Origin: an uncultured Campylobacterales bacterium
Lineage (GTDB): Bacteria; Campylobacterota; Campylobacteria; Campylobacterales; Sulfurimonadaceae
DNA length: 64,000 nt
Direction of reading: 5' to 3'
NCBI GenBank assembly: GCA_903892995.1
Contig: CAITKP010000063.1
Location: 1-64,000, forward strand
The position numbers and the translations under genes were made by a program. Positions 9,821 to 51,438 of this stretch are shown one piece after another (within the stretch, counting starts at the first letter, position 1; each line of letters begins with the position of its first letter). A model generated the notes under the pieces. That model was not told the origin of the DNA, did no database searches, and saw only the letters and a program-made list of their open reading frames with translations.

Positions 9821-11083
9821 GTGAATAAAAATCTCGTAAATAAGATACTTATTACGGTTGGTTTTTTATTCATCTACCGCTTACTGGCTTATGTGCCAGT
9901 ACCCGGTGTTGATGCTTCTGTCATCGCTTCTTTCTTCAACACTCACAATAACGATGCTTTAGGACTTATGAATATGTTCAGTGGAAACGCTGTTCAACGT
10001 CTTTCTATTATTTCATTAGGGATTATGCCTTATATTACTGCTTCAATTATTATGGAGCTTTTAGCGGCTACTTTTCCTGCACTTGCTCAAATGAAAAAAG
10101 AGCGTGATGGTATGGTGAAATATATGCAGATTATTCGTTATGCAACTATTGTAATTACAGTTATTCAAGCAATTGGAGTAAGTATCGGCTTACAAAGTAT
10201 GACAGGACCAACTGGTAATAGTGCTATCTTAATAGATCACAACACTTTTATATTACTATCTGCAATCTCAATGCTTGCTGGAACAATGTTACTTATGTGG
10301 ATTGGAGAGCAGATAACTCAAAGTGGAATCGGAAATGGTATCTCTTTGATTATCTTTGCAGGTATCGTATCAGCTATACCAACAGCTATTGGACATACAT
10401 TTACTATGATCAATACAGGTGAGATGAACTTTTTGACTCTTCTTGCAGTGCTTGCACTGATACTTGGGACAATAGGTGTCATCATCTATGTTGAACTTGG
10501 TGAACGTCGTGTTCCTGTGACATACGCGAAAAAAACTATGATGTTAAATCAAAATAAACGCGTTATGAACTATATACCTATTAAAGTGAATCTTGCTGGT
10601 GTTATTCCAGTAATCTTTGCTAGTGCTATTTTGATGTTTCCTATGACTGTGCTTTCAAGCTCTCATAATCCAACAATTCAAGCAGTAGCGGATTATTTAC
10701 ATCCAGGTGGATACTTTTTTAACTTTCTAACTTTCGTATTTGTTGTATTTTTTGCGTTTTTTTACTCATCAATTACTTTCAATGCAAAAGATATTTCAGA
10801 AAATTTGAAACGTCAAGGTGGTTTTATTCCTGGTATTCGTACAGGCGAAGCGACTAAAAACTTTTTAAATACAACTGCAAGTAATCTTACTTTTACTGGT
10901 GCACTTTACCTTGGTTTGGTTGCAACTTTACCGTTTATGATTATAAAGGGTATGGGAGTGCCATTTTACTTTGGTGGAACAGCAGTTTTGATCGTCGTTC
11001 AAGTTGCACTTGATACAATGAGAAAAATAGAAGCTCAGATCTATATGAGTAAGTATCAAACACTAAGTGCGGTTGGTCTGTAA
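9821..11083 (+). CDS. secY: Preprotein translocase subunit SecY (GTG start)
   Basis: VYVPVPGVD, multiple TM segments, position after rplO. Confidence 0.97.
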   Translation: MNKNLVNKILITVGFLFIYRLLAYVPVPGVDASVIASFFNTHNNDALGLMNMFSGNAVQRLSIISLGIMPYITASIIMELLAATFPALAQMKKERDGMVKYMQIIRYATIVITVIQAIGVSIGLQSMTGPTGNSAILIDHNTFILLSAISMLAGTMLLMWIGEQITQSGIGNGISLIIFAGIVSAIPTAIGHTFTMINTGEMNFLTLLAVLALILGTIGVIIYVELGERRVPVTYAKKTMMLNQNKRVMNYIPIKVNLAGVIPVIFASAILMFPMTVLSSSHNPTIQAVADYLHPGGYFFNFLTFVFVVFFAFFYSSITFNAKDISENLKRQGGFIPGIRTGEATKNFLNTTASNLTFTGALYLGLVATLPFMIIKGMGVPFYFGGTAVLIVVQVALDTMRKIEAQIYMSKYQTLSAVGL

Positions 11084-11085
11084 AA

Positions 11086-11844
11086 ATGGCGATTGCTATT
11101 AGAAAACCTCAAGAGATTGAAAAACTTCGCGCTGCTAACAAAATTGTTGGCGGCGCTCTGCAACTATTAAGAGAAAATACTAAAATCGGGGCTTCATTAA
11201 AAGAACTTGACGCTATGGCAGAGGATTATATTCGCTCTCATGGTGCAAAACCATCTTTTAAGGGTTTATATGGATTTCCAAACTCTGTATGTACTTCACT
11301 CAATGAAGTTATTATTCATGGGATTCCAACAGATTATAAACTCCAAGAGGGTGATGTGATCGGTTTTGATATTGGGACTGAACTTAGTGGGTATTTTGGA
11401 GATGCAGCGATATCTGTAGGAGTTGGTCAAATAACTCCAGAAGATGAAGCTTTGATCGCATGTGCTAAAGATACTTTGTATCATGCAATCGAAAATATTC
11501 AAGAGGGAATGCGCTTTAAAGAGCTTTCTTACTTGATGGAACAGTTTATTTTATCAAGAGGTTTTGTACCTTTGAAAAACTTTTGTGGTCATGGAATAGG
11601 CAAAAAGCCACATGAAGAGCCTGAGATCCCAAACTATCTTGATGGAGCAAATCCAAAAGCTGGTCCAAAGATCAAAAATGGCATGGTCTTTTGTTTAGAA
11701 CCTATGATCTGTCAAAAAGAGCCAAAGCCTGTAATACTGGAAAATGGCTGGGATGTAGTTAGTACCGACGGTTTACGCGGTTCACATTATGAGCATACTG
11801 TCGCTGTGATAAACGGCAGAGCTGAAATATTATCTCTACCATAA
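11086..11844 (+). CDS. map: Methionine aminopeptidase
   Basis: [17 protein letters not shown], ...LEPMI. Confidence 0.96.
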
Positions 11845-44027: not shown

Positions 44028-44053
44028 ATGGTGAGCTTGAGTAAGCTCACCAT
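44028..44053. terminator. Perfect hairpin terminator
   Basis: ATGGTGAGCTT-GAGT-AAGCTCACCAT directly after helicase stop. Confidence 0.8.
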
Positions 44054-44110
44054 ATAAGAATATCGCTCAACATACCATGTTGCGAATAGAGCTTAGACAA
44101 TATAGGCTAC

Positions 44111-44599
44111 TTAGTCCTTGAACTTTTGCTTACTGCAAGTTCCTTTCTTCGCCATGTCCAGCTGGGAAATCGATTTTTTCGCTTCAGCTTCCTCTATTAA
44201 CTCTAAATTAGCACCATTAATGAGAACGCCTATCTTGATATATTGTCTAATAAAGTAATTTTTCCCACTCTCTGTTTTTATAAAGAGATTGTTAGGTGAA
44301 AACTCTGACTCAGTCGAAATTGTATGCCACGTATCTCCTTTTATATCTTCATAAAAGAAAATATGAGGTGCAGACTCACCAATACATTTATCATCAACCC
44401 ATATATCTTTCTTTAAACCGAGTCCTGACATTGAATCTCTATAAATATACAAACCTGCATTTCCTCTGGAAGGCAAGTTGAAAGACTTGGCTTTTATAGA
44501 AATTTCTTTACTTTCCATCGGAATAGTGGTACATCCATTAAGCAACAAAAGACCAACTATGGATAAGCCTAATTGTGTGTTCATTGATAATAATTTCAT
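44111..44599 (-). CDS. DUF2846-like lipoprotein
   Basis: Lipobox LLLNGC; GNAGLYIYRDS. Confidence 0.7.
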   Translation of the reverse strand: MKLLSMNTQLGLSIVGLLLLNGCTTIPMESKEISIKAKSFNLPSRGNAGLYIYRDSMSGLGLKKDIWVDDKCIGESAPHIFFYEDIKGDTWHTISTESEFSPNNLFIKTESGKNYFIRQYIKIGVLINGANLELIEEAEAKKSISQLDMAKKGTCSKQKFKD

Positions 44600-44602
44600 T
44601 TT

Positions 44603-44950
44603 CTACTTTTTAGGATATGCTGTAGCCGTAATAGTGGTTGTATATACAGTACCAACAAGGGCATATGTCCAAGATTCCTCAATTTTAATATCGGTAATAT
44701 AATCATCATGAGCTTGTGCCAATAATTGATTGTAGGCTCTTACATGGCGAGTATTGATATCGATAGGAATAAATAAAAGTAATTGAAATCCACTTTCTGA
44801 AGCGGTAATTGTTCGTCCTTTATCTTTTACATCGGCGTAATTTTTTGGATCAATACTCTTGAATGAGATAGGCTTACCTGCACATCCAATGAACCAAACA
44901 GCAAAAATTGCAACTAGCGCAATACTCAAAAGTTTTTTAAAAAAATTCAT
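44603..44950 (-). CDS. Lipoprotein, paralogue of the next gene
   Basis: WFIGCAG lipobox; FIPIDINTRHVRAYNQLL. Confidence 0.65.
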   Translation of the reverse strand: MNFFKKLLSIALVAIFAVWFIGCAGKPISFKSIDPKNYADVKDKGRTITASESGFQLLLFIPIDINTRHVRAYNQLLAQAHDDYITDIKIEESWTYALVGTVYTTTITATAYPKK

Positions 44951-45303
44951 TCTTTTATCTCCTTAATTGCTTCACCTGTGATTGTAACTGTTCTTCCTGT
45001 GCCAAGGACCCACCAAAACCAATCTTCTTGATAGGTAACATTCACAAGTCCTGTTGCATCAGGAACACTCTTTACTGCGTTTTGATACGCTCTCTCACTT
45101 CTTGAATTCAGTCCTATTGGAACAAAGTAATAGGCTGTACCAAGCAAGCCAAGTGAACCAGTCCCTTCGCCTTTTGTTTGACCAAGTGTCTGATATTTTG
45201 TAGGTGGTGTTTGTTCGATCTTTACTTGATGAGATGAACATCCAGAGAGTAAAAAAAGAGCTATTGCAGGAACAATAATCTGTGATCGTAGCATTGGTTT
45301 CAT
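44947..45303 (-). CDS. Lipoprotein (TRL-like), paralogue of the preceding
   Basis: LFLLSGCSS lipobox; FVPIGLNSRSERAYQNAV. Confidence 0.65.
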   Translation of the reverse strand: MKPMLRSQIIVPAIALFLLSGCSSHQVKIEQTPPTKYQTLGQTKGEGTGSLGLLGTAYYFVPIGLNSRSERAYQNAVKSVPDATGLVNVTYQEDWFWWVLGTGRTVTITGEAIKEIKE

Positions 45304-45449
45304 ACCGAGTCTCCTTAATATTTTAAACTTTAGAATCCATTTCAGGGAACGCATTTTTTAATATATGCTAAATCTAACTTTTTTCTATCATATTTAGCTT
45401 TTGACACTATATATATGGTTGCATTAAAATCATCTGAATTCATATAATC

Positions 45450-45469
45450 CAACACTATATAAGGTGTTG
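45450..45469. promoter_or_regulatory. Operator-like inverted repeat upstream of the XRE regulator
   Basis: CAACAC-TATATAAG-GTGTTG ending 7 nt before the ATG. Confidence 0.5.
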
Positions 45470-45476
45470 AAATAGC

Positions 45477-45764
45477 ATGTATGAACAATTGGATATCGAA
45501 GCGAATGAGCTCTTAGACTTAATCTCATCCAATGTTGTTAAATTTAGAAAAGCTAAAGGGTATAGTCAACTCAAATTAGCAACAGAGATGGGTTATAGCA
45601 GCGCATCCTATTTTGGGTGTATAGAAATTAGAAAAAATGGTCAGCATTTCAACATTGTTCAGCTTTATAAAATCAGTAAGATACTCGACATCCCAATATA
45701 TAAGTTTTTTGAACCAGTTGATCAATCCACGAAACAAAGTACAGAATTAGCTAGCTTAAGTTGA
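45477..45764 (+). CDS. XRE-family HTH transcriptional regulator
   Basis: RKAKGYSQLKLATEMGYSSASYFGCIEIRKNGQ. Confidence 0.85.
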   Translation: MYEQLDIEANELLDLISSNVVKFRKAKGYSQLKLATEMGYSSASYFGCIEIRKNGQHFNIVQLYKISKILDIPIYKFFEPVDQSTKQSTELASLS

Positions 45765-45908
45765 GCAATGACACATAAAGGTCACATATATTTTTTTGTA
45801 CCTTGTGTTAAAAAAGCAGTTTTAATCAATAGTTAGGTAAAATGCTTAGCCTTGAATATGTAGGTACTTAGTGACTTTGAAAGTGATTTACTACATGGTA
45901 AAATTTTT

Positions 45909-45984
45909 CTCTCCATCGCTTAACAGGATAAAGCAGTCCCCTCCTAAGGGATAGCTCCAGGTTCGATTCCTGGTGGGGAGACCA
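45909..45984 (+). tRNA. tRNA-Arg(CCU)
   Basis: CTCTCCA/TGGGGAG acceptor, loop CTCCTAA, encoded CCA. Confidence 0.93.
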
Positions 45985-45993
45985 GCTATTATT

Positions 45994-46335
45994 CTATATG
46001 GTTTTTAGTAACTTCTCAATATCATTTTTAAGCGGTAGTAGTTTTGTATTTATGATATCCCATATCTCATCAGCATCTATACCAAAATAATCATGAGCGA
46101 TAATATTTCTAAAGTCTTTGACTTTTTGCCATGGTATTTCATTATGAGTTGCTTTAAACTTTTCATCAAGTCTTGAAATAATTTCGCCAATTACTACAAA
46201 CTGCATCATGGATGCATCAAAACTTTTTTGATCGTGGTAGAAGTCATTAGCATCTGTAAACTCTTTTGAATACAATTCAATCTTCTCGATAGATTCAATA
46301 AGTGCTTTGAGATTAAAGCTAATATTATGAGACAT
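45994..46335 (-). CDS. hepT: HepT-like HEPN toxin (DUF86)
   Basis: DFRNIIAHDYFGID (RX4HXY). Confidence 0.88.
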   Translation of the reverse strand: MSHNISFNLKALIESIEKIELYSKEFTDANDFYHDQKSFDASMMQFVVIGEIISRLDEKFKATHNEIPWQKVKDFRNIIAHDYFGIDADEIWDIINTKLLPLKNDIEKLLKTI

Positions 46336-46627
46336 ATAATGTATCTTTTAAAATCTGTTCTTTTGCGTAAGGCTTGAGATATTTTTCACGAGCGATATCT
46401 ACACTGCGTTCAAATGATGTAGATAAAAATTGTCGAAGTGCATTTTTAAGTTCATAAACGTTTTGAGTGTTCTCTTCAAGTTCAATAACAAGATCGACGT
46501 CACTGTTTTCATTTTGTTCATTACGTGCAAATGAGCCAAAAAGACCTATCTTGCTGACATGGTACTGTTGTGACAATAGTGATCGATTTTCTTGTAAGAA
46601 ATTTAATATTTCATCCCGCGTCTTCAT
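46325..46627 (-). CDS. mntA: MntA-like nucleotidyltransferase antitoxin
   Basis: IGLFGSFARNEQNENSDVDLVIEL (GSF-X10-DVD). Confidence 0.88.
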   Translation of the reverse strand: MKTRDEILNFLQENRSLLSQQYHVSKIGLFGSFARNEQNENSDVDLVIELEENTQNVYELKNALRQFLSTSFERSVDIAREKYLKPYAKEQILKDTLYVS

Positions 46628-46643
46628 GAGGAGAATTGTATCA

Positions 46644-46679
46644 TATTCACTAAATTATAAAATACATTATTAGTGAATA
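46644..46679. promoter_or_regulatory. Inverted repeat upstream of mntA-hepT
   Basis: TATTCACTAA (46644-46653)/TTAGTGAATA (46670-46679). Confidence 0.55.
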
Positions 46680-46779
46680 AACAAATATTTGCATATGATA
46701 GCTCCAGGTTCGATTCCTGGTGGGGAGACCATTTTTTAGGTACTCACCACAAGATGTTATGTTTTAAAACGAGCTGTTT

Positions 46780-48132
46780 TTAGGCATGAAACATATCTGC
46801 GTATAAACGTTTTGCCCATGCGTCAAGCAGCTTACCATTTTCAAGACCTACTTTGCCTTTCCACTGCTCAGACATCTCAACATTTGTGAATCCTGCAAGT
46901 GTTTTGCCTTCAAATTTATATTGCGCTCTGATTGAAATTGCACGTTCAGGTTTTGCGGATACTGATGAATAGCACACAGTCAGTGGAGATACCCAAGGAA
47001 TGTCATTTCCATCTTTTATTCTTTGTGCTATCAATTGACCAAGATAGCGCCCCTCAGTATTGGAAGTATTTCCAGATTTAGAGTAACCCATAGGACGAGC
47101 ATCACCTGAGACAAAGATATTTTTGTTTTCTACCCCGATTGCTTCATAGGTAAATGGGTCGATATTTCCCTCCATTTTGTTAAATGCAGTATCTTGTGCT
47201 ACACCACAAACTTCAAGAAGTTTTCCACCACGGACATGCGGATAAAATGCTCCATCAGCAAATGTATAACTCTCTTCCATTTCGCCAATAACAACTGTTT
47301 TTTTATCGAGATCGATACTTATGATTTTGGCATTTGGTACATATTGGATGTAATCTTTGTACATCTCGTTAAAGGCTGATTGGAATCCCTCTTTTTTGAT
47401 GGTGATCTCTGCATTCTCATCGAGTAGAAGCACTTTTCCTTTTATTTTGTGTTTTTTGAAATAATCAGCAATGAGACAAGCTCTTTCATAAGGAGCAGGA
47501 AGACATCTGTAGTTGCCACCTGGTACTGTGAGGATGAAGTTTCCACCTTTGAAGTTTTGTACCTTGTTTTTGAGTGTCATATGTTCACTGCCTGGAATAA
47601 ACGCAGCTGGATATTCCGTACGCAATCTTTGCTCTGTCACAAGATCGATTCCCCACGGAGCATAATCATACTCTATTCCAGGAGCAAGCACTAAGTAATC
47701 ATATTTAATGTCCCCATTGCTAGTTTTGAGAATTTTATTTGTTTTATCTACGCCTACTGCTGTTGCATTGAAAAAATTATATTGATTTTCACGAGCGGCT
47801 TGTAGATAGTCATGCGTTAAAAACTCCAAATCAACTTCGCCTACTACATAAAGGTTACTAACAGGACATGAAATAAACTCAGATCTTCGCTCAACTAAAA
47901 CGACATCAGCATTTGGAGCAAACTTTTTTGTGTATTTAGCAACAGCTAAACCTGACCAACCGCCACCTACAACAACGACTCTTGGGCCTGTTGCTTCTGG
48001 AAGTGGAGCTGGTGAGCCAACACCAACGGCTAAAACAGTTGTTTCTTTTGACTCTGATGCACTCACACTCGCAGCAAAAGTTGCAGCAACGGCACTTACT
48101 AAACTATATTTAAGTATGTCTCGACGGTTCAT
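46780..48132 (-). CDS. FCSD-type flavoprotein (sulfide dehydrogenase flavoprotein subunit), Tat signal
   Basis: MNRRDILKYS Tat motif; VVVGGGWSGLAVAKY; NYRCLPAPYERACLIADYFK. Confidence 0.85.
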   Translation of the reverse strand: MNRRDILKYSLVSAVAATFAASVSASESKETTVLAVGVGSPAPLPEATGPRVVVVGGGWSGLAVAKYTKKFAPNADVVLVERRSEFISCPVSNLYVVGEVDLEFLTHDYLQAARENQYNFFNATAVGVDKTNKILKTSNGDIKYDYLVLAPGIEYDYAPWGIDLVTEQRLRTEYPAAFIPGSEHMTLKNKVQNFKGGNFILTVPGGNYRCLPAPYERACLIADYFKKHKIKGKVLLLDENAEITIKKEGFQSAFNEMYKDYIQYVPNAKIISIDLDKKTVVIGEMEESYTFADGAFYPHVRGGKLLEVCGVAQDTAFNKMEGNIDPFTYEAIGVENKNIFVSGDARPMGYSKSGNTSNTEGRYLGQLIAQRIKDGNDIPWVSPLTVCYSSVSAKPERAISIRAQYKFEGKTLAGFTNVEMSEQWKGKVGLENGKLLDAWAKRLYADMFHA

Positions 48133-48325
48133 AGTAACTCCTGATTTTTTATAAATTTTTAAAATATTACTCGACAATCTTATAACTATTACAATTAAAT
48201 GAAAGTTAGAAAATTTATCTACTCTAGGCTATCTTACAGGCAGAGAAGCATAAAGAGACTGCAATATGCTCATGAACAAAATTATCTTACATGTAATAGG
48301 ATAAATAGAAAAAATTTGCTAAAAT

Positions 48326-50047
48326 TTGTTGAATAATATTTACAAAGAAACTAAATACTTGGAGGAAAGAGTGGAACTTATGAACCATATGACTATAAAA
48401 AGTCGATTACTGCTTTTAGCAGCTATTACCGGGTTGGGTGTTATTTTTATTGTGTTTATTGGATGGCGAGGTATAGAAACCATAGCTAAAGAAAATAATG
48501 AGCTTGGCGTTGTTCGTGTACCATCGCTAGAAGGTTTGATGGAGATGCGTCTTGGTTACAATGAAGTACTCATCCAGCAATATCGGGCAAGAGGATTTAT
48601 TGGTGATCCAGATCGTGCAAAAAAATGGGCTGATTGTGTTGAAAAAACAGATAAAGGTTGGGAGAGATATAAAAAAGGATATGATCTTTATGCTTCGCTA
48701 CCTCAAACTCCAGAAGAAGCCACTGAGTGGAAGCTTTATGAAAAATCCATGGCACAGTGGAAAGATATCAGTGATAAATATGAACATGATATAGTTGGAC
48801 CTTTGGCAAAACAGACCAAACAGATGAGTGATACTGTTATATATGATGAGATGACAAAGTTTACAGAAGGAAGTCGTAAGATTCGACGCGAGATGATAGA
48901 TCATATGAGCGTGATTTCTAAGATCAATGTAGATGTCGCAGATGCTTCTGTAAAAGAGGGACAAAAAAGCGCATCGACTGCAAAAACATTGATGCTGGCA
49001 CTGGGCATTGTTATATTTGTTATGGTTGTGACCTTAGCACTTGTGATTATGAACAGTATCGTTAAATCATTAAATATGATGAGTACTACTATGGAATATA
49101 TTGCTCAAAAACGTGATTTTACAGTTGATGTAGAAGCTAAAGGGGAAAATGAGATCGCTGATACATTAAGAAGGTTTAATATCCTCATTCAAGCTGTGAG
49201 AGAGGCATTTAGTATGGCTAAGAGCGCTTCTCATGAAAATATGTCAGTGGCTGCTGAGCTCAGCTCAACTTCACTTGCTATTGGAAAACGTGCAGAACAT
49301 GAGGCTCAAGTTGTCAGCAGTACGACAAATGAAGCGCAGATCATGTCAAGAGGTATTAATGAGTCTTTGGCAGATGTTGAAGTTACAAAAAAAGAGATTT
49401 TAGAAGCAAAACAAAGTTTAGATCTTGCAAGAAAACAGCTCAACACGATGACAGAGCAACTAAATCATACAGTTGAAGTAGAAGCAGAGATCAATCAGCG
49501 TCTTAACACGCTTAGCCATGATGCAGATCAAGTAAAAATAGTTTTGACAGTGATTGGAGATATTGCTGAGCAAACAAATCTTTTAGCATTAAATGCGGCC
49601 ATAGAAGCAGCGCGCGCTGGTGAGCATGGACGCGGTTTTGCCGTTGTTGCTGATGAGGTAAGAAAACTCGCAGAACGTACTCAAAAAAGTCTTCTTGAGA
49701 GTAACGCGACGATTAATATTATCGTTCAAGGGATCAATGATATTACTGATCAAATGAATGCAAATGCACAAAATATCGAGGCTTTAAGCGAGTCATCCGA
49801 GGAAGTGAATCTTCAGATGAACACTACTGTAAGCATTGTCGATAAAACTGCGATTACTGTTGATTCACTTGCAAAAGTTTCTATGGAATCTACAAAGAAA
49901 ACAGAATCTATCATCACTCAAATCGATTCGATCAATACACTTTCATCTTCAAATGCACGTAGTGTAGAAGAGATAGCATCTGCTGCTGAACATCTTCATG
50001 CAATGACTGAAAAGCTCAGTACACAGCTTGGAACATTTCGCACTTAA
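48326..50047 (+). CDS. Methyl-accepting chemotaxis protein (start uncertain)
   Basis: TM, four-helix-bundle-like sensor, hairpin [29 protein letters not shown]. Confidence 0.93.
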
Positions 50048-50058
50048 ACTTAAATCTA

Positions 50059-50082
50059 CGCATTATCCTCTTGGATAGTGCG
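50059..50082. terminator. Hairpin between convergent MCP and cheR
   Basis: CGCATTATCC-TCTT-GGATAGTGCG. Confidence 0.7.
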
Positions 50083-50084
50083 AG

Positions 50085-50873
50085 TTAAAAAAGGTCTGCA
50101 TGACCAAAAAATATCTCTCTTGTTGGTTCCTTTAGCATACTTTGTAAAATATTTTTAGCCTTGGATTTTGTTTCTTTATCAAAATATATCAGCATATTTC
50201 TAGAAAATATAAAATCAAACTTTCCAAGATTTAAAAACTCCGCATCAAAAATATTGATCTTTTTAAACTCAGTAGAGTTTTTTGCCTCCGCTTTGAGGAT
50301 ATAGGAGGATTCCTCTTTATAAAAATATTTTTCTCTTAACTCTTGAGAAAGGTTTTGAACATTTCTTTCATTATAAACAGCATTTTTAGCTTTTTCTATA
50401 ACCTGTCCATTGATATCTATACCTAAAATAGAGAATTTTTGAGCCGAAATATTGGCTTCTAAAAAGGCTATAACAATAGAGTAAACCTCTTCACCGCTCG
50501 CACAAGGAGCACATAAAATATGAACGGGAGTCTGTACGGTTTTGATATCTTCTACAAGTTTTTCTAATTGTTTATATTCTCGATTGAAATATGTTTCATT
50601 TACTGTGAGATAATCGATGAGCTCTTGTGTTGTGAGTTTATCTTTAACAATAAACTGAAGACACTCATTGAAATTTTTGTATCCTCTTTTCATGCAAAAA
50701 GCGCTCATTTTATTTTTTAAAATAGTAAGTTGCTTATCGAAATTGACACCTGTTTGCTCTTTAAAATAGCTTGCGATAGGTGTGACATCATCAAAAGAGT
50801 AGGATTCAAGTGTTGGTTGTATCTCACACTCTTCGCTCTCTTGGACTTTTTTCTTTTTAAAAAAATTAAACAT
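50085..50873 (-). CDS. cheR: CheR-type chemotaxis methyltransferase
   Basis: FNREYKQLEKL; CAPCASGEEVYSI; FIFSRNMLIYFD. Confidence 0.9.
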   Translation of the reverse strand: MFNFFKKKKVQESEECEIQPTLESYSFDDVTPIASYFKEQTGVNFDKQLTILKNKMSAFCMKRGYKNFNECLQFIVKDKLTTQELIDYLTVNETYFNREYKQLEKLVEDIKTVQTPVHILCAPCASGEEVYSIVIAFLEANISAQKFSILGIDINGQVIEKAKNAVYNERNVQNLSQELREKYFYKEESSYILKAEAKNSTEFKKINIFDAEFLNLGKFDFIFSRNMLIYFDKETKSKAKNILQSMLKEPTREIFFGHADLF

Positions 50874-51438
50874 ATTCTGCTCCAAACTCTTTAATGGCAA
50901 CGATGATTTCATCGAGCGAGAGCACGTTTATATTTTCAACTACCTCTTTCGCTCGCATAGGCATACCATAAACGATAGCACTCTCTTGTGATTCAGCAAT
51001 GAGAGAGCTTGCACACTTAGAGAGATCTAGCATTCCGCTTGAACCATCATCACCGATCCCAGTTAAAATAATAGCCATAATTTTATAACCCCCGCATAGG
51101 ACAACGCCAGAGGAAAAAAGTTCACTGATATCTGGATTGTATTGGGAGTATTCATCCTCTTGGGCGCACAGAGTTATGGTCTCGTCGATCATCTTAAATT
51201 TACAATTTTTTTCACACACATAGATGGTTTTGTTTTTTAAATAACTTGTATCCTCTACTAAAGTGACAGTGAGTTTAGAAATCTCATTTAAACTTGCTGC
51301 AAAGCTTTTAAGATACTCTGCGCCCATGTGCTGCGCTATGACTATTGTGGCATTAAAAGTGGATGGCAGAGATGAGACTATTTTTTGAAGATGGCCAGGC
51401 CCTCCAGTTGAGGAACCAATAAGTATAATATTTTGCAA
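50866..51438 (-). CDS. cheB: CheB-type methylesterase without receiver domain
   Basis: IGSSTGGPGHLQKI; IAQHMGAEYLKS; GIGDDGSSGM; 190 aa only. Confidence 0.9.
   Translation of the reverse strand: MQNIILIGSSTGGPGHLQKIVSSLPSTFNATIVIAQHMGAEYLKSFAASLNEISKLTVTLVEDTSYLKNKTIYVCEKNCKFKMIDETITLCAQEDEYSQYNPDISELFSSGVVLCGGYKIMAIILTGIGDDGSSGMLDLSKCASSLIAESQESAIVYGMPMRAKEVVENINVLSLDEIIVAIKEFGAEYV

Follow-up and report, generated by a model that had tools for sequence, protein, structure and literature searches.

The 64,000-nucleotide stretch of DNA analysed here (the window) carries, at its tRNA-Arg(CCU) gene, a 747-bp segment in which a predicted hepT-mntA toxin-antitoxin operon lies between two copies of the tRNA 3' end. 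On balance, we lean towards reading this segment as a non-autonomous integrative islet, put in by a recombinase acting in trans.

Structure of the 747-bp unit

A repeat search of the window paired 45950-45991 with 46697-46738 at 93% identity, the first 35 bp being without mismatch and the two copies starting 747 bp apart. These 35 bp take in the CCA end of the tRNA and, when the tRNA was compared with the window by BLAST, its positions 42-76 matched the second copy at 100% (E 1e-14). A 20-bp piece of the repeat, allowed up to two mismatches, occurs at exactly two sites in the source genome (a draft assembly of 107 contigs and 2.43 Mb), and the reversed control gave none. Chance origin of the repeat pair is negligible. 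The perfect duplication of the tRNA 3' end at this spacing, proposed in a first-pass annotation of the same DNA, was recovered by the repeat search, by BLAST and by the genome count. The features are collected in Table 1.

Table 1. Features of the tRNA-Arg(CCU) locus and of the repeat-bracketed unit beside it (window positions)
Feature	Position	Strand	Basis and remarks
tRNA-Arg(CCU)	45909..45984	+	ARAGORN call; recD2 - tRNA-Arg(CCU) synteny in the genus; intact, the insert restoring this target gene
Direct repeat copy 1 (tRNA positions 42-76)	45950..45984	+	Repeat search, BLAST
hepT, predicted HEPN RNase toxin, 113 aa	45994..46335	-	RX4HXY = RNIIAHDY; stop codon on the side of the tRNA 3' end
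mntA, predicted minimal nucleotidyltransferase antitoxin, 100 aa	46325..46627	-	GSX10DXD = GSFARNEQNENSDVD
10-bp inverted repeat TATTCACTAA-N16-TTAGTGAATA	46644..46679	.	Directly upstream of mntA
Direct repeat copy 2 (displaced tRNA 3' end)	46697..46731	+	Repeat search, BLAST, genome-wide core count
ATTTTTTAGG, putative original downstream sequence	46732..46741	+	Resembles CTATTTTAGG after the same tRNA in congeners

Between the repeats lie hepT and mntA only, both reading towards the tRNA, and no recombinase ORF was found among the ORFs of the 747-bp unit. The first-pass annotation had described the same content, which the ORFs and the PF01934 and PF01909 matches bear out, but it had hepT starting 10 nt after the tRNA. 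It is the stop codon and not the start that adjoins the tRNA, from which the hepT ORF is separated by 9 nt. Of that earlier picture of a mini-island, the inserted unit, the HepT/MntA cargo, the missing recombinase and the empty sites in relatives stand, whereas the orientation of hepT had to be reversed.

The annotation had also held that copy 1 restores an intact tRNA and that copy 2 is the displaced 3' end. The ATTTTTTAGG that follows copy 2 resembles the CTATTTTAGG that follows the tRNA in sister species, with 8 of 10 bases alike over this short stretch, which makes it plausible that copy 2 is the displaced original end. A restored target, a displaced 3' end and an insert bounded exactly by the repeat together give the unit the build of a site-specific tRNA-gene insertion.

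The perfect 10-bp inverted repeat overlaps the presumed mntA promoter and is possibly an operator. Transcription of hepT would enter tRNA-Arg in the antisense direction, with no clear terminator in between. No third tRNA copy, as stacked islands would leave, was detected above shuffle level near 51.5 kb or upstream of the tRNA. The surroundings of the unit have features of their own. Between recD2 and the tRNA, the window holds ∼1.9 kb (44028-45908) in which small lipoprotein-like ORFs stand beside genes for a DUF2846 and an HTH protein; the same gap measures only a few dozen bases in four congeners (G001, G007, G006 and G002), and in G003 it contains a different 3-kb insertion. After the second repeat, positions 46780-51438 encode an FCSD-like flavoprotein, an MCP and two chemotaxis-type ORFs (apparently CheR- and CheB-like). 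This flavoprotein block is absent from the corresponding locus in all compared congeners, and its far end carries no tRNA fragment.

Assignment and mobility of the hepT-mntA pair

Both products score far above the Pfam gathering scores (HepT to PF01934, E 9e-23; MntA to PF01909, E 4e-15), and their genes overlap by 11 bp. A HEPN gene thus adjoins an MNT gene, as in type VII systems, and the two type VII motifs are present, RX4HXY in the toxin and GSX10DXD in the antitoxin; these motifs define adenylylation-type HepT/MntA pairs (PMC7641770). Against the NCBIfam equivalogs, the pair reaches 32.4 bits (NF047751) and 45 bits (NF047752), below the cut-off of 60, which is a naming threshold and no defining trait of the type VII class. 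On its domains and motifs, we assign the predicted pair to the HepT/MntA type VII toxin-antitoxins, outside the narrow curated equivalog. It shares with SO_3166/SO_3165 of Shewanella oneidensis (PMC7641770) the neighbouring PF01934 and PF01909 genes and both motifs. Unlike known HepT/MntA systems, it makes up the entire content of a repeat-bracketed insert and scores below the equivalog cut-offs.

Horizontal transfer of the pair is most likely. RecD2 of the window shares 91% identity with that of G001, 75–77% with those of genus g2 and 54–60% with those of genus g15, whereas the corresponding HepT values are 84% (for the decayed G001 copy), 81–86% (several g2 genomes) and 79–84%. HepT is thus less conserved than RecD2 within the genus and far more alike across genera, as transfer between lineages would predict. 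No hepT homologs were found in IMG/VR, and those on plasmids have less than 60% identity.

Occupation of the tRNA-Arg(CCU) site in relatives

The order recD2 - tRNA-Arg(CCU) is conserved in the genus. In line with the expectation of empty sites in relatives, three congeners (G006, G003 and G002) have an intact tRNA and lack a second copy of its 3' end. Because the genes beyond copy 2 differ among all congeners compared, these sites were judged empty by the tRNA end, and no allele that is empty flank for flank was found. In G001, a second copy of the tRNA end lies 1425 bp downstream (55-bp repeat, one mismatch), and the cargo is a single gene for a 362-aa HD-domain protein. Beyond that copy, G001 has decayed mntA and hepT on the plus strand, opposite in orientation to the window pair, and their products are 84–85% identical to the window proteins over the retained parts. 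The locus has therefore held hepT-mntA in two orientations. In G007, a 92-aa ORF is followed by a decayed tRNA-end copy ∼635 bp downstream, with a score of 30 against a shuffle maximum of 14. With the window included, this tRNA thus harbours a different very small unit in each of three sister species.

Two observations had been named beforehand as speaking against a mobile cassette, namely a large island between the same repeats in relatives and vertical conservation of the cassette. No large island was found at tRNA-Arg(CCU) in any congener, and the sister species hold either different genes or a decayed copy that faces the other way. When 228 genomes of the family were searched with the window sequence, a copy of the 3' end alone was found in the window genome and G001 only, a search that cannot see copies of diverged tRNAs or the decayed one in G007.

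Upstream of the second copy, G001 and G007 share a segment of ∼75–100 bp (L031:16306-16380 and L032:10381-10455) that is 75–77% identical while the cargo differs; it is possibly a shared recombination arm or a sign of common ancestry of this end. As a common recombination site the 75-bp segment was rejected, being absent from the window unit and unremarkable in its fold. The HD-domain gene of G001 was likewise discarded as a general cassette, since an 81% homolog stands elsewhere in G007 without repeats.

Two genomes from other genera of the family show that tRNA-Arg(CCU) is a true integrase target there. In G010, a tyrosine integrase of the arm-binding type (392 aa) is encoded ∼190 bp away from the tRNA, and G017 has a prophage of ∼36 kb at this tRNA with an integrase similar to that of G010. 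These elements share target and family with the window unit and differ from it in having their own integrase; at the far end of the G017 prophage the last 18 bp of the tRNA are repeated, compared with 35 bp in the window. In the source genome, the 20-bp core occurs at the two repeats alone and a search for a helper integrase with a matching core gave none; the core is absent from IMG/VR. The one source-genome integrase with notable similarity to the G010 enzyme (36% identity) is located next to ssrA. Among the other tRNA loci of the source genome that were compared, none showed a clear copy of its 3' end outside a tRNA; a 25-bp match of 84% by tRNA-Gln at a contig end was set aside as probably a neighbouring tRNA.

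Partial or multiple copies of this tRNA also occur in other arrangements. G016 has a copy of the 5' part (tRNA positions 1-60, 92%; L038:6180-6239) ∼5 kb upstream of an intact tRNA-Arg(CCU) (11221-11296), the opposite half to the usual 3' fragment. In G014, two tRNA-Arg(CCU)-like copies in inverted orientation (L037:6522-6602 and 10445-10515) surround a gene for a 1086-aa GGDEF/EAL-type protein.

The same pair between repeats at other genes

DNA similarity of the window unit to other loci stops at hepT and mntA. At 27 loci that have a close hepT homolog, we compared the 600-bp flanks in search of direct repeats, with 358 mixed flank pairs as the null (mean score 10, 99th percentile 14, highest 15 except for one pair at 24, taken to be two homologous kdsB loci). 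The window scored 35, and two further loci stood well clear of the null. In G103 (score 27), hepT-mntA is bracketed by the last 30 bp of kdsB (97%) at a spacing of 739, and at L157 (score 37) the repeat, of 52 bp (90%), comes from close to the 3' end of a peptidase-like gene (181 aa) and has a spacing of 885; neither unit contains an integrase. L152 is ambiguous (score 18, an 18-bp repeat within the 5' part of a gene). G169 has a kdsB unit with two further genes beside hepT-mntA and its second copy further out, so that the G103 unit could be a shortened form. At the remaining 22 of the 27 loci, no repeat brackets the pair within 600 bp.

In genus g2, integration is concentrated at a hot spot, the kdsB 3' end (L242, L243, L244, L094, L093 and L219). 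Displaced tails of this gene, 30 to 177 bp long, flank hepT-mntA, AAA_14/DUF4143 ATPases or an LVIVD-repeat protein; the tails duplicated over 177 bp (84–88%) surround other cargo than hepT-mntA in G157, G091 and G174. Among the ORFs examined, no integrase was found in the kdsB-site units, and in several species kdsB is directly followed by rpsO.

More distant bracketed loci are of mixed kind and serve as leads only (L165, 46 bp; L099, 32 bp; L173, 47 bp at 80%; L170, a whole-gene duplication), and the repeats at L192 and L193 were dismissed as low-complexity. At L170 (L170:4213-5718), in a Bacteroidales genome, a gene for a small membrane protein is present as two complete tandem copies with hepT-mntA between them, as would be expected after insertion by a single crossover. 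Next to tRNA-Phe and tRNA-Ser (G157, G091 and L155), hepT-mntA lies near the tRNA 3' end and no repeat was found. In G166, the pair lies in a 3.3-kb stretch between an 18-bp copy of the tRNA-Asn 3' end (L116:8355-8372) and tRNA-Asn itself (11693-11767), which also holds a D12 methyltransferase fragment and an S24 peptidase repressor-like gene.

Origin of the unit

Under the reading we favour, the hepT-mntA operon, its own upstream region and a copy of the tRNA-Arg(CCU) 3' end would have entered by site-specific recombination, the inserted copy completing the tRNA and the old 3' end being pushed to the far side. Since the unit has no recombinase, the enzyme must come from elsewhere, most likely as a tyrosine integrase of a phage or island using the same tRNA. 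Once inserted, the operon would hold itself in the chromosome by addiction, and it might serve in phage defence. Action in trans, excision or a circular form, and toxin activity are what we infer from the sequence. The islet is favoured by the perfect 35-bp tRNA-end repeat around two genes only, by the other tiny units in G001 and G007 next to empty sites in G006, G003 and G002, by the integrase-bearing elements of G010 and G017 at the same tRNA, by the integrase-less units of the same pair between 3'-end repeats at other genes (G103 and L157), by DNA similarity to other loci that stops at the two genes, and by the signs of horizontal transfer in HepT. Against it count the lack of an integrase with a matching core in the genome and of the core in IMG/VR, the differing repeat lengths and targets of the mini-units, which no single enzyme explains, the 22 of 27 close hepT-mntA loci without a bracketing repeat, and the larger version of the G103 unit in G169.

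The unit could also be what is left of a larger, integrase-bearing island that sat in the tRNA and decayed while its toxin-antitoxin pair was kept, an origin that we consider rather unlikely. Loss of such a pair poisons the cell, so that remnants would converge on hepT-mntA alone; addiction-biased retention of this kind is established for toxin-antitoxin systems in general, integrase-bearing elements do occupy this tRNA in other genera, and the G169 unit at kdsB has two genes in addition to hepT-mntA. The content of the window unit would be explained in this way, but not the tiny cassettes of G001 and G007. Two of the three sister-species units have no toxin-antitoxin pair between the repeats, and no debris such as a piece of an integrase was seen in any of the three. 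The same pair also forms small units at unrelated sites, and G001 shows that the pair can decay away. An insertion of the Campbell type, in which a small circle with hepT-mntA and a target 3' end is taken up by one RecA-dependent crossover with no site-specific enzyme, seems to us improbable. It would account for the long, imperfect repeats at protein genes, such as the 177-bp kdsB tails of G157, G091 and G174, for the wide range of the repeats (35 bp at 100%, 30 bp at 97%, 52 bp at 90%), for the tandem gene copies at L170 and for the integrase missing from every unit. It is a less natural source of a perfect 35-bp tRNA end, however, and leaves the change of target gene by the pair unexplained. 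At 35 and 30 bp, the repeats approach or fall short of what RecA usually requires for efficient recombination, and tRNA 3' ends are classic integrase sites that real integrases use here. Copying of the tRNA tail by chance or by ordinary duplication, for reasons unrelated to the genes between, has nothing in its favour beyond the absent recombinase and is exceedingly improbable; the perfect match of 35 bp to the tRNA end and nothing else speaks against it, and the comparative data already contradict it, with empty sites, parallel cassettes, independent repeat-bracketed copies elsewhere and the null test.

Beyond the favoured islet, we raise, tentatively, the idea of a class of integrase-less cassettes of 0.6–1.5 kb, each holding a gene or two (often hepT-mntA) plus a spare target 3' end, that may move among Campylobacterota and insert at the 3' ends of tRNA and protein genes, by recombination in trans or by the host.

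Comparison with known systems

Among toxin-antitoxin modules, HEPN/MNT pairs have been called the most abundant (PMC7641770), and for the most part there is no explanation of how lone chromosomal pairs spread. The 747-bp unit, cleanly delimited and with empty sites and parallel units elsewhere, offers a testable mechanism, either a borrowed integrase or a single crossover. Our literature search, incomplete in coverage, turned up no account of toxin-antitoxin islets that lack an integrase and sit in tRNA genes. Being non-autonomous and presumably dependent on an enzyme in trans, the unit resembles the hitcher elements (CALINs, MITEs and phage satellites) reviewed in PMC11389934, from which it differs in having no phage-related genes. 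With two genes only, it has none of the phage-hijacking, replication or packaging genes of phage satellites (PICI, P4-like elements, tycheposons). Unlike those of CALINs and transposons, its ends, as judged from the bracketing repeats alone, are the tRNA 3' end and not attC or transposon ends.

The unit also resembles the tRNA-targeting islands of Islander (PMC4383910), in which a restored tRNA and a displaced 3' fragment likewise mark the two ends. The window unit has the intact target, the displaced fragment in direct orientation and the empty site of such islands, but at 0.75 kb it lacks an internal integrase and is not classed as one of them. Because Islander requires an integrase gene and applies a length filter, catalogues of this design would miss the unit and have a blind spot for others like it; should the proposed cassette class be real, integrase-requiring island finders would overlook all of it.
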